Shown here piece by piece: positions 9,945-34,594 of a stretch of 38,722 bases of DNA. The translations under genes and the position numbers were made by a program. The DNA is taken from the IMG/VR virus record IMGVR_UViG_3300032238_000540, positions 1-38,722 of that record; one strand, given 5' to 3'. Origin of the DNA: a virus. Position 1 is the first letter of the stretch; the number at the start of each line of letters is the position of its first letter. A model generated the notes under the pieces. The model made no database searches and had not been told where the DNA came from. It was given only the letters and a program-made list of their open reading frames with translations.

Positions 9945-9964
9945 GGAAGGCACTTTTACCTTCC
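9945..9964 (-). other. 5'-terminal leader hairpin of the replication operon
   Basis: GGAAGG (9959-9964) / CCTTCC (9945-9950) with an eight-base loop, followed by TTT and the ATG at 9941. With the promoter -10 at 9968-9973 the message would begin almost exactly at the hairpin. The only purine-rich ribosome-binding candidate (GGGGAAGG) is inside the 5' arm, so the stem may either shield the 5' end or limit initiation. Confidence 0.55.
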
Positions 9965-9967
9965 CCA

Positions 9968-9996
9968 ATTATATCAGAACGGAGCGGGTTGGTCAA
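9968..9996 (-). promoter_or_regulatory. Host-type (sigma70-like) promoter of the replication operon
   Basis: Minus strand: -35 TTGACC (9991-9996), 17-base spacer, -10 TATAAT (9968-9973), with TGA extending the -10. It is embedded in the last codons of the HNH gene, whose stop is within the spacer. It would drive the DUF3310-like gene, 45, the oxygenase, DenV-like, 44, cupin, DUF4338-like, 62 and regA to the terminator at 4375-4398. Confidence 0.8.
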
Positions 9997-10483
9997 GTTG
10001 TTGCTGGATAAGTTTTTGTCGTTCCTCAAAAGAAAGGTTTGTCCAATAAAGATGCTTTGCCGCCATTTCAGCATCACTATGTTTTTTGTGACAAGTTTTA
10101 CATAAAAGACGGCATTTTTCAACTTCTTTCCACCATAAATCAAGAGAGCAAGGAAAAGCACTTATAGTAAATTGTTTTTGTGCTGGGTCTATATGATCAA
10201 ACTCAAGATTTTCAGTTGTTTCACACCACACACATTTTCCACCAAGTTTTTGTTTTGCTTCTTCCTTTAAGATGTTTCGTCTATTATTAAAATAAGGGAC
10301 TCTTTTCTCTTTCAGTTTTTCTTTGTTTTCCTGATAATAACGCATATTGCGCTCATCAACTTTTTCTTTATTCTTATAATAGTATTCTCTATCAGCAAGA
10401 CGTTTTGCTTCTTTTTGCTCATCCGTCATTTTTTGACGGTATTTTTTGTTATATTCAATTTTTTGTTCTTTTGAATAAGGCAT
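9974..10483 (-). CDS. HNH homing endonuclease (free-standing)
   Basis: 169-aa HNH nuclease with a C-terminal zinc-bound beta-beta-alpha core: CVWC near residue 84, the DH pair in LEFDHIDPAQ, and CRLLCKTCHKKHSD. The N-terminal half is a lysine-rich helix with repeated units of the form REYYYKNKEKVDER / MRYYQENKEKLKEK, a DNA-binding arrangement common in phage HNH enzymes. Such genes are usually selfish elements inserted between conserved genes, here between cobS and the gp45 operon. It is preceded by an inverted repeat with a late promoter in its loop (10490-10531), and its 3' end carries the promoter of the next operon. Confidence 0.9.
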   Translation of the reverse strand: MPYSKEQKIEYNKKYRQKMTDEQKEAKRLADREYYYKNKEKVDERNMRYYQENKEKLKEKRVPYFNNRRNILKEEAKQKLGGKCVWCETTENLEFDHIDPAQKQFTISAFPCSLDLWWKEVEKCRLLCKTCHKKHSDAEMAAKHLYWTNLSFEERQKLIQQQLDQPAPF

Positions 10484-10489
10484 AATAAA

Positions 10490-10531
10490 CTGAAAAGTGC
10501 TATTACTATTTATAGGAATAACACTTTTCAG
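10490..10531 (-). promoter_or_regulatory. Late promoter TATAAATA in the loop of a 17-bp inverted repeat
   Basis: Arms 10490-10506 and 10515-10531 match at 15 of 17 positions; in minus-strand RNA one of the two differences becomes a U-G pair. The eight-base loop (10507-10514) is exactly TATAAATA on the minus strand, the T4-type late consensus. The repeat ends six bases before the HNH start codon. Read-through RNA from cobS can fold; RNA begun at the late promoter lacks the 5' arm. Confidence 0.8.
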
Positions 10532-10543
10532 AAAAAAGCACTA

Positions 10544-11680
10544 TCAGAAAGAAACTTCGTGACCACCCTCAATAGTCAATTCAAGTTTGGGGTTTTCTTC
10601 TTTCGGAAGTTCAAAATTAACATCAATCTTGTCATAAAGTTCCAAGAAGGATTGCTTGGTCTCATCATCAAAACGATTGATACAAACTTGAAGTGCTTTT
10701 GCCTTATCGTTGAAGATACTATAAGCACGAATAATATGAACCAGGCGACGGGTGCTGATGATTTCCTCAATACCACCATCGTAGAAAGTTTTACGGATCA
10801 CATCCGCCCAATCAACCAAACGCTTGCAGAAATCGCGGTCTTCCACACCAAGATCCAGAGCAACACCTTCCAAGATCTTCTGTTCGGTAGCAGGAGCAGG
10901 ATAGGACTGCTCAAAGGTTACAGGAAAACGTTCTAGGAAGGCTTCGTTGAGCACGTTAGTTCCAATAAACCTACCATCGTCTGAACCTTTGCCTTTAGTA
11001 TTGGCAGTTGCGATGACGTTGAACCCGTTTGCTGGTTTAATGAATGTTCCAATTTTTTTAAGGAAAACTCCTTTCCCTTCCAAAATGGATTGGAGACAGA
11101 GAATTTTATTACTTGCGAGGTCGATTTCGTCAAGAAGCAATACAGCACCTCGTTGGAGGGCTTCAATGACGGGTCCATTGTGCCAAACAGTTTCGCCATT
11201 AACCAAACGGAAACCACCGATGAGATCATCTTCGTCAGTCTCTACTGTAATATTTACACGAATCAACTCACGATTGAGTTGAGCACATACTTGCTCAACA
11301 CTGAACGTTTTACCATTACCCGAAAGACCCGTAATAAACGTAGGATAAAAGATACGGGACTGAATAATTTTTTTAATGTCGTTAAAATTACCAAACTTGA
11401 CGAAGGTATCATCTTTATCAGGAATAAGATTTTGTTCCACAGCAGGGAGGGCAGCAGGAGCTTGATATGCTTGCTCCATTTTATTAACGATTGTGGGAGT
11501 TACTTCCAAATTCCAACGACCACGGGAAGTTTTAAATGGTTCCAAACGACGAGTGACTGTTGGGTAAGAAAGATTTTTAGAAGCGCAGTATCCACGAACA
11601 TCAGCAGCAGTAAGATCCTTACCAAAGGTAGTTTGAAGATCTTGAAGAATTTGATCGTCAGACATTTGAAGGCGGGGCAT
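10544..11680 (-). CDS. cobS: CobS/MoxR-like AAA+ ATPase
   Basis: 378-aa AAA+ protein of the kind annotated as CobS in T4-like cyanophages. A helical N-terminal region (residues 7-60, YPTVTRRLEPFK) precedes the ATPase core: Walker A GLSGNGKT at 118-125, Walker B VLLLDEID near 180-187, sensor segment VIATANTKGKG, arginine-finger region NEAFLERFPVTFE. Bacterial CobS works with CobN and the VWA protein CobT to insert cobalt into the B12 ring; MoxR relatives act as chaperones with VWA proteins. The gene for a VWA/HExxH protein lies two genes upstream in the same operon, so an AAA+/VWA partnership is likely. No CobN is visible. Confidence 0.88.
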   Translation of the reverse strand: MPRLQMSDDQILQDLQTTFGKDLTAADVRGYCASKNLSYPTVTRRLEPFKTSRGRWNLEVTPTIVNKMEQAYQAPAALPAVEQNLIPDKDDTFVKFGNFNDIKKIIQSRIFYPTFITGLSGNGKTFSVEQVCAQLNRELIRVNITVETDEDDLIGGFRLVNGETVWHNGPVIEALQRGAVLLLDEIDLASNKILCLQSILEGKGVFLKKIGTFIKPANGFNVIATANTKGKGSDDGRFIGTNVLNEAFLERFPVTFEQSYPAPATEQKILEGVALDLGVEDRDFCKRLVDWADVIRKTFYDGGIEEIISTRRLVHIIRAYSIFNDKAKALQVCINRFDDETKQSFLELYDKIDVNFELPKEENPKLELTIEGGHEVSF

Positions 11681-21457: not shown

Positions 21458-21790
21458 CTATTTAGATCTGTTTTCTTTATAGTGCCTTACCCTATGACAA
21501 TTGGAACATAACATTATACATTTACTTACCTCTTCCATTATAGTTTCAATTTTACTATCCAATCTTGGTGCTATCTCAAATTTTTTTTCTAAAGGATTTT
21601 TGTGATGAAAATCATAACAACATGCTAAAAAAGTTGCATTACAATCAAAACATTTATTTCCAAAATGTTCTATCAATTGTTGTTTATGTTTATCTCTACG
21701 CATCATCACATTTTTTCTATGATTTTCTGCTCTCCTTTTCTTCCTACCTTCTCCATAAAAACCAGAAGTATTTGATATTGGTCTAGGCAT
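21458..21790 (-). CDS. HNH homing endonuclease (small)
   Basis: 110-aa HNH nuclease. Zinc/catalytic motifs: CFDC near residue 47, DFHHKNP near 60 and CIMLCSNCHRVRHY near 91, preceded by a basic N-terminal arm (GRKKRRAENHRKN). Free-standing endonuclease next to the highly conserved gene 23, a common site for phage homing genes. It lies just after the gp23 terminator and has a perfect late promoter 26 bases upstream of its start. Confidence 0.9.
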   Translation of the reverse strand: MPRPISNTSGFYGEGRKKRRAENHRKNVMMRRDKHKQQLIEHFGNKCFDCNATFLACCYDFHHKNPLEKKFEIAPRLDSKIETIMEEVSKCIMLCSNCHRVRHYKENRSK

Positions 21791-21815: not shown

Positions 21816-21823
21816 TATTTATA
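21816..21823 (-). promoter_or_regulatory. Late promoter TATAAATA
   Basis: Perfect T4-type late consensus on the minus strand, beginning within the U-tract of the gp23 terminator. It would start transcription near 21810 and express the HNH gene, the gp19-like protein, UvsY, the oxygenase, UvsW and Sm-like C. Confidence 0.78.
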
Positions 21824-21850
21824 AAAAAAGAGGGTTTTTTCAAACCCTCT
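21821..21850 (-). terminator. Rho-independent terminator after gene 23
   Basis: Perfect nine-bp stem AGAGGGTTT / AAACCCTCT (21842-21850 and 21829-21837) with a four-base loop, followed by a run of six U residues, 22 bases after the gp23 stop. The strongest hairpin in the window by inspection. Confidence 0.92.
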
Positions 21851-21871
21851 AATGAACTATGTAATAAAAAA

Positions 21872-32947: not shown

Positions 32948-34594
32948 TTACATATACTCCCACATGTATGCACGATCTCCATATTCATCTAAGTGCCATC
33001 TATCTCCCTCATCATCAACAAAACTAGTCTCATCCGTTCCATCTACAATAAATCCAAAAGGAGCCATATCTTGTTCAATCTGATTTTTTTGTTCTTCATA
33101 TAATCTTTTTCTTACATCTTGATCGGTAAGTTCTTTGAAATAATCTTGAGCAACTAACCATGCATAAATGACTAGACACATTGCCAAGTCATCATTACAT
33201 CCTTCTTCTGCCTCAAAGGAATTATTTTTTTGAATGAATGTAGTTAATTCACTCATAATCTCATAATCATTAAAGATGAGTTTATCTTCTTCAACCATCG
33301 TCTTGAGATTGAGACATCCAACTTTTTTAACAGCTTTAGACATCTTTACGCCAAGTTGAGTTTTCTTTCCAGAAAAACCTTGCCCAACAATTTGTCCCGC
33401 TCTACCCCTCATTGAGCACATTAAAAGATTATTATACTCAAGATCATAATGGACAATGCTTGCTACTTGATCTCCAACATCATTCACTTCACATAAAATA
33501 AATGCATTATTATAATTTTTTGCTATATCCACAATAATGCTTGGAAATAACATTGGTTTGATTTCATTATTTCTATATTTTCCAACTACTCTGTGAGGAA
33601 ACTGTGTAATGTCTATTACAGTGAATGCTGAATAATCATTTCCAACCCCTCTGGCTACGTCTACAGTGATCAAATAGTCGTGTTCTTCAATAGGATCCAC
33701 ATAAATGTCTAATCCACCGCTACGGGTCTTAGGATGGTCATAGACGAGGGTTCTAAGTTTTGATGGTGCAATCAAAGTATCAACAGAACCAAGGAATTCG
33801 CACTCAAACTCAACTTTGAATTGTTGCTCTGATGTATTGGATATGGTTTGCTTTTTCCATTCCTCATCTCTTCCAGGAACTTCGGACCAATGAACATCCG
33901 TTGGCACATATTCATTTTTACTTCTTTCTGCATCATGCCACATACGGTAGAAGTGATTCATACCGTGTGGGGTTGAGACTATGATGACCTTTGTGCTTTT
34001 ACCAGACGAGATAGTAGGATAAACAGAGGCAAAGAATTGATCAGCAATGTGGTTCGGGATGAATGCGAATTCGTCCAAAAAGATGACATTATATGATCCG
34101 CCACGGACAGCAGATGCAGACGTAGATGCGGCGAGAATTTTAGATCCATTCTCTAGTTCTAAACTACCTTTGTTCCAAGATAGAATACCTTGCTGCATCC
34201 ATTTCGGCAAGTTTTCGTATGCAAGTTGTAACCTACTAAGAAGATCTCTAGCTGTTGATGCCTTGTTTGCTAAAACTGCAATATTTACGTTATCGTTGAA
34301 AACGGCATAATGAAGAAGATAAGATACGCATGTCGTTGACTTACCAGTCTGACGAGGCATCTTGCAGATATTAAATCTATGCTCATGAAAGTTTTCAATT
34401 AATTTTTCCTGAAACGGATACATCTTAAATGGTTGTAATCCGTGATCAAGAGTAACAATTTTAATATAATTTTTAGCAAAATAAACCGGATCTTCCTTAC
34501 ATTTCACAAACTCAAGAATTTGTTCTTGAGTAAATTCAATAGGAGTATTTGCTTTTTTTAAATTCGGATTACCAAGATAAATGTCATCAGCCAT
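32948..34594 (-). CDS. 17: Terminase large subunit gp17
   Basis: 548-aa packaging ATPase and headful nuclease (T4: 610). N-terminal ATPase: Walker A KMPRQTGKSTT at residues 78-88, Walker B NVIFLDEFAFI near 169, coupling motif VSTPHGMNHF. C-terminal RNase H-like nuclease: ITVDVARGVGNDYSA, ILCEVNDVGDQV and CNDDLAMCLVIYAW hold the acidic metal ligands. The start at 34594 has AAGG upstream. No recognisable small terminase gene (16) lies immediately before it. Confidence 0.97.
   Translation of the reverse strand: MADDIYLGNPNLKKANTPIEFTQEQILEFVKCKEDPVYFAKNYIKIVTLDHGLQPFKMYPFQEKLIENFHEHRFNICKMPRQTGKSTTCVSYLLHYAVFNDNVNIAVLANKASTARDLLSRLQLAYENLPKWMQQGILSWNKGSLELENGSKILAASTSASAVRGGSYNVIFLDEFAFIPNHIADQFFASVYPTISSGKSTKVIIVSTPHGMNHFYRMWHDAERSKNEYVPTDVHWSEVPGRDEEWKKQTISNTSEQQFKVEFECEFLGSVDTLIAPSKLRTLVYDHPKTRSGGLDIYVDPIEEHDYLITVDVARGVGNDYSAFTVIDITQFPHRVVGKYRNNEIKPMLFPSIIVDIAKNYNNAFILCEVNDVGDQVASIVHYDLEYNNLLMCSMRGRAGQIVGQGFSGKKTQLGVKMSKAVKKVGCLNLKTMVEEDKLIFNDYEIMSELTTFIQKNNSFEAEEGCNDDLAMCLVIYAWLVAQDYFKELTDQDVRKRLYEEQKNQIEQDMAPFGFIVDGTDETSFVDDEGDRWHLDEYGDRAYMWEYM

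Follow-up and report, generated by a model that had tools for sequence, protein, structure and literature searches.

Regulation of a phage endonuclease gene by a hairpin together with a late promoter is known for I-TevI, I-TevII, I-TevIII, segB and mobE of Aeromonas phage Aeh1 (PMC2988022). In the td intron of T4, the hairpin of I-TevI is present only on read-through RNA, and transcripts begun at the late promoter have lost its 5' side (PMC2988022). For I-TevII and I-TevIII, which reside in the nrdD and nrdB introns of T4, we checked the sequences and found TATAAATA, a T4-type late (gp55) promoter motif, between the hairpin arms directly before the homing endonuclease and inside an earlier-expressed gene. 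T4 segB and Aeh1 mobE, both free-standing and the latter an HNH gene that was compared by its description, likewise combine an inhibitory hairpin with a late promoter (PMC2988022, PMC3014915). The T4 lysozyme gene e, which does not encode an endonuclease, has a hairpin on its early RNA, and initiation at upstream late promoters removes the 5' strand (PMC3014915). A cyanophage leader with comparable parts is that of psbA in S-PM2d, where an inverted repeat of 36 bp and the motif of a late promoter occur in the 5' untranslated region; psbA is a photosynthesis gene, however, and the effect proposed for its leader is light-dependent regulation rather than the timing of a late start (PMC5931967). 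Our partial literature search found no description of hairpin/late-promoter regulation of an endonuclease in cyanophages.

Here we analyze a locus of this kind in IMG/VR record IMGVR_UViG_3300032238_000540, the whole 38,722-nucleotide stretch of which is referred to below as the window. The phage is a freshwater-type cyanophage. As in I-TevII and I-TevIII, TATAAATA lies between the arms of a hairpin directly before an endonuclease gene, and as in I-TevI the complete hairpin would be present only on read-through RNA. There are also differences. I-TevII and I-TevIII are group I intron genes with hidden Shine-Dalgarno sequences, whereas the HNH gene of the window is free-standing, with no intron found and no Shine-Dalgarno. 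The I-TevI promoter, AATAAATA, is within the 5' arm and its stem reaches the AUG, whereas in the window the loop holds the promoter motif and 6 nt separate the stem from the AUG. The segB promoter, CATAAATA, is also in a 5' arm, and both segB and mobE belong to other phages, with other sequences and other insertion sites. Because it is without the Shine-Dalgarno that the T4 leaders hide, the cyanophage form is a variant rather than a strict member of the known group. What differs from the known principle is the absent Shine-Dalgarno and the breadth of the arrangement in cyanophages.

The hairpin element between cobS and the HNH gene

The HNH gene (9974 to 10483, minus strand) encodes 169 amino acids that match PHROG HNH endonuclease families (best E = 5.4e-17). 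The window copy matches Pfam HNH only weakly (E = 0.024); all 13 aligned members of the family match at E ≤ 1, the best at 0.0012, and the DH, CxxC and CxxCH positions are conserved in the family. This is probably a mobile or selfish gene with putative nuclease and homing activities. Immediately upstream, about 60 nt away on the same strand, is a gene for a cobS-like AAA ATPase (10544 to 11680; Pfam AAA_5, E = 2.5e-19, with matches to cyanophage cobS). No group I intron was found around the HNH gene: there was no Rfam match in the window and cobS is intact. Nor did a terminator scan, which needs an unbroken stem at the loop, find a terminator between the two genes.

Read on the minus strand, positions 10531 to 10481 are CTGAAAAGTGTTATTCC-TATAAATA-GTAATAGCACTTTTCAG-TTTATT-ATG. 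The 5' arm CTGAAAAGTGTTATTCC (10515 to 10531) would be carried only by RNA reading through from cobS, the motif TATAAATA (10507 to 10514) forms the loop, and the 3' arm GTAATAGCACTTTTCAG (10490 to 10506) ends exactly 6 nt before the HNH ATG. Of the 17 positions of the arms, 15 are complementary as DNA; in RNA a U.G wobble replaces one of the two mismatches, which gives an outer stem of 15 bp and an inner stem of 3 bp. An inverted-repeat search extended the element to 20-nt arms with a 90% match and 2 nt between them, and no other compact repeat among the 25 longest that it listed for the 38.7-kb window was as good as the one at 10490 to 10531. The minimum free energy computed for the element RNA was -19.5 kcal/mol compared to -4.06 ± 2.06 kcal/mol for shuffled sequences (z = -7.5; none of 200 shuffles was as good). 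The window has 4 copies of TATAAATA compared to 2.95 expected, which is not significant by itself. The unusual feature is therefore the placement of the motif inside the loop and not its occurrence. A Shine-Dalgarno sequence (AGGA, GGAG or GAGG) is absent from the HNH leader of the window.

Relatives of this HNH gene are encoded at 26 IMG/VR loci, 24 of which include the HNH start. The hairpin precedes the ATG in all 24, and TATAAATA does not vary among them. The sequence-only reading of this DNA had described a near-perfect 17-bp inverted repeat with TATAAATA as its loop and a 3' arm ending six bases before the HNH start codon, and both descriptions hold. When the viral collection was scanned for its pattern, 25 contigs had the element, in each case at the junction of cobS with an HNH gene of the window type and nowhere else. 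Mean pairwise identity across the 42-nt element was 95.5%, whereas HNH third codon positions reached 72.9% and an upstream cobS stretch 77%, and by this comparison the element is under strong constraint. The arms are 91–97% identical, the 5' arm being the highest (97%). This is beyond what base pairing demands and hints at a further role at the DNA level. Covariation within the family was limited to one compensatory stem pair (C-G to U-A; 73 of 500 shuffles scored as high), as the arms vary too little, and most members have a U.G pair inside the stem.

The insertion site and a captured promoter

We examined 80 cobS loci to compare genomes with and without the HNH gene. In most genomes that lack it, TATAATTGGGGAAGG...CCTTCCCC comes after the cobS stop, then a -10 box, a GC-rich stem-loop and the DUF3310 and sliding clamp genes; the last cobS codons, 17 nt upstream, hold a -35 box (TTGAC) at most of the HNH-minus loci listed. 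Where the HNH gene is present, TTGACC-17-TATAAT is found at the last HNH codons instead (17 of 21 loci). In the window this sigma-70-type promoter (9968 to 9996, minus strand) has 11 of 12 consensus bases and a TG before the -10 box. Its -35 box is in the last HNH codons and its -10 box is right after the HNH stop, so placed as to serve the DUF3310 and sliding clamp genes. After the -10 box comes the stem-loop GGAAGG-TAAAAGTG-CCTTCC (9945 to 9964, minus strand), the same GC-rich hairpin that is directly 3' of cobS in HNH-minus genomes.

Since the cobS stop of HNH-minus genomes stands directly before the promoter and the GC-rich hairpin, the HNH gene lies between cobS and its old terminator. 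Comparison of the two arrangements indicates that the insert took over the promoter of the downstream DUF3310 and clamp genes. A review describes a like takeover of downstream genes' promoters by the seg and mob genes of T4 (PMC2988022). One locus (L059, 3638 to 3710) has a relic of the HNH 3' end after cobS, the gene having been deleted and the captured promoter kept. Possession of this promoter may favor retention of the HNH gene.

Loop hairpins at other cyanophage late promoter motifs

Distant HNH relatives, with about 40% identity, had unrelated arms in the same layout. A survey covered 2.56 Mb of cyanophage contigs plus the window, and in it 287 TATAAATA sites were folded with the octamer kept unpaired. 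An ORF began 8–46 nt downstream of 228 of these sites, and clustering at 50% identity gave 129 ORF representatives, to which a hairpin cut-off of z ≤ -3 and E ≤ -7 was applied. In this sample, where contigs were picked via cobS and HNH matches and cut-offs were set after a first look, a loop hairpin preceded 14 of 37 endonuclease representatives and none of the 92 other late ORFs (Fisher p = 3e-9; classes were assigned by PHROGs, except that five hairpin-less endonucleases were assigned by a shared motif only and most of the 92 others by eye). The arrangement that the sequence-only reading had suggested seeking before other cyanophage HNH genes is thus present, in lineages of HNH, endonuclease VII-like and GIY-YIG type whose arm sequences differ from one another. 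The other 23 endonuclease representatives behind TATAAATA were without a loop hairpin. In contrast to T4 gene e, no non-endonuclease gene behind TATAAATA in the survey had a hairpin within the cut-offs.

An earlier partial scan of 1.54 Mb had found hairpins of -14 kcal/mol or lower at 6.3% of TATAAATA sites, compared to 0.64% for permuted octamers. With the cut-offs fixed, 3 of 74 ORFs from five isolates passed, all of them HNH or endonuclease VII-like; in the marine isolates S-PM2, P-SSM2 and ACG-2014f there was no TATAAATA-loop hairpin before an endonuclease. Cultured phages that do have the arrangement are Synechococcus phage S-SRM01, before genes at 126172 to 126582 (hairpin z = -10.9) and 33079 to 33498, and DSL-LC03, before a gene at 40846 to 41256. 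A looser motif, NATAAATA, was not specific in the isolates, as baseplate, head-tail adaptor (behind an apparent terminator) and ferredoxin-like genes also passed. In S-PM2, at about 66.8 kb (L427, 6770 to 6833), a head-tail adaptor gene is preceded by a strong hairpin that resembles a terminator and encloses GATAAATA in its loop, so that promoter motif and terminator are folded into one before a structural gene.

Shine-Dalgarno sequences were absent from 23 of 25 cyanophage hairpin leaders and were present in 26 of 170 other late genes of these phages. A broader claim, that all endonucleases, those without a loop hairpin included, hide their starts, was dropped when its raw p value of 2e-7 became 0.06–0.08 with the upstream sequence shuffled.

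A second HNH family offers more variation in the arms. Three stem pairs are changed on both sides, the covariation score was 0.298 compared to 0.163 ± 0.023 for shuffles (0 of 500 as high), and the arm changes preserve RNA pairing, G.U pairs included. Two elements stand in series before some genes of this family (L338–L341 and L335): first a GC-rich terminator that has a T-run, then the hairpin with the promoter in its loop.

The genomic context of endonucleases with and without the hairpin also differed. A same-strand gene close upstream, without a T-run, was found for 10 of 13 hairpin endonucleases and 6 of 23 hairpin-less ones (p = 0.005, or p = 0.015 if one unclear case is counted against). 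Hairpin endonucleases are mostly 13–77 nt behind a same-strand gene, and the genes upstream of them include nrdA, nrdB, a DnaB-like helicase, DNA polymerase, the late sigma factor, uvsX, pstS and photosystem II D1-type genes, several of which are replication genes. The window itself encodes a second, distinct HNH gene (21458 to 21790, minus strand) behind the major head protein gene. It is preceded by a GC-rich terminator and then a plain TATAAATA (21816 to 21823) without a loop hairpin, an absence that would be expected were the hairpin required only at genes exposed to early read-through.

At L270 (8965 to 10631), psbA, with a PhotoRC-II RNA upstream of it, is cut short at 222 amino acids and is followed by a loop-hairpin endonuclease and a group I intron match (RF00028). 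At L277 (14975 to 16856, minus strand), a loop-hairpin endonuclease directly follows the N-terminal half of a DNA polymerase gene, and no Rfam intron match was found at that locus.

A probable timing switch and its alternatives

We consider it probable that the element acts as a switch that times the expression of a mobile HNH gene inserted into the transcription unit of cobS. Transcripts of cobS, which is presumably expressed early or in the middle of infection, would run on into the HNH gene, since no terminator was found between the two. This read-through RNA, carrying both arms, would fold the 15-bp hairpin over the region just before the AUG and so hinder ribosome loading. In late infection, the gp55-type late RNA polymerase of the phage would start at TATAAATA in the loop; the resulting RNA, with its 5' end within the 3' arm and a leader of some 17 nt, could not form the hairpin and would be translated. 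With the late start assumed to be 6 nt after TATAAATA, giving a 17-nt late leader, the modelled cost of opening -18 to +12 around the AUG was 21.0 kcal/mol for read-through RNA compared to 4.8 kcal/mol for late RNA. The model is consistent with the predicted late start and early block of translation, and lends computational support to the earlier proposal that RNA with both arms folds at the start codon while late RNA lacking the 5' arm stays open. As the leader has no Shine-Dalgarno, the block would be less direct than in T4 and would act just before the AUG. The sequence-only reading had compared this logic to that of I-TevI and presented it as a case in a free-standing gene. The logic fits all the comparative tests that we ran, but it is not new in principle for free-standing genes, as T4 segB and Aeh1 mobE illustrate.

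Another possibility is that the palindrome acts as DNA, as an operator around the late promoter that is bound by the HNH protein or another dimeric repressor and switches the promoter off; this could coexist with the RNA switch. There is precedent in I-TevI, which represses its own late promoter via an overlapping operator (PMC2988022), the center of the palindrome is the promoter, and the identity of the arms exceeds pairing needs. However, this is unlikely, as in 18 of 21 sequences the palindrome contains a T.G mismatch, which can pair in RNA but not in DNA, the arm changes of the second HNH family respect RNA pairing down to G.U, and unrelated endonuclease families share the geometry of the element and not its sequence. 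In addition, the empty cobS–clamp target region had no copy of the element above shuffles. One could speculate that both roles are combined, the RNA blocking early translation and the same palindrome serving as DNA as an operator for the HNH protein, and, more widely, that promoter-in-loop hairpins are a convergent and near-diagnostic mark of homing endonucleases in T4-like cyanophages. Such an operator role would explain why both arms are conserved beyond pairing, and we put this dual reading forward as a tentative possibility.

It is quite improbable that the hairpin is instead a cobS terminator after which TATAAATA restarts transcription. The hairpin does come just after the cobS stop and TTTATT follows its 3' arm, yet its stem is rich in A/T and its U-rich tail lacks conservation (CCAACTT in L017, ATAACT in L018 and TAATACTAAA in L162), whereas genuine terminators of these phages, such as the one at 21824 to 21851 of the window, combine a GC-rich stem with a long T-run. 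The terminator scan, given its rule on unbroken stems, did not flag the hairpin, the second family has members with such a terminator in addition to the hairpin, and a terminator role would not be restricted to endonuclease genes. That restriction, together with the presence of TATAAATA in the loop across unrelated lineages, is also left without account if the hairpin serves processing or stability of the cobS or HNH mRNA, by protecting a 3' end or as an RNase site. RNase E does cut some T4 endonuclease transcripts (PMC2988022) and hairpins that follow a stop codon can shield the 3' end of an mRNA, but we regard this explanation as very improbable. Finally, all copies in the window's family are at one genomic site, as they would be if a functionless inverted repeat had spread with a recent HNH insertion. 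This is scarcely credible: chance is ruled out by conservation of the element in every relative with an HNH start, far above that of neighboring sequence, as well as by the folding score, and other lineages have evolved or retained the design with arm sequences that differ. The timing switch is thus the reading that we favor.

These data extend a mechanism of timing, known from studies of a few endonucleases of T4 type, to a large and ecologically important group of phages, and they provide a simple sequence signature for finding genes regulated in this way. If promoter-in-loop hairpins are near-diagnostic, they could be used to find unrecognized homing endonucleases. The repeated appearance of the arrangement with unrelated sequences and, among the late genes surveyed behind TATAAATA, before endonucleases only, suggests that early expression of the nuclease is costly enough to select the same solution repeatedly. 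Why homing endonucleases are held back until late in infection is now testable in a second phage-host system.
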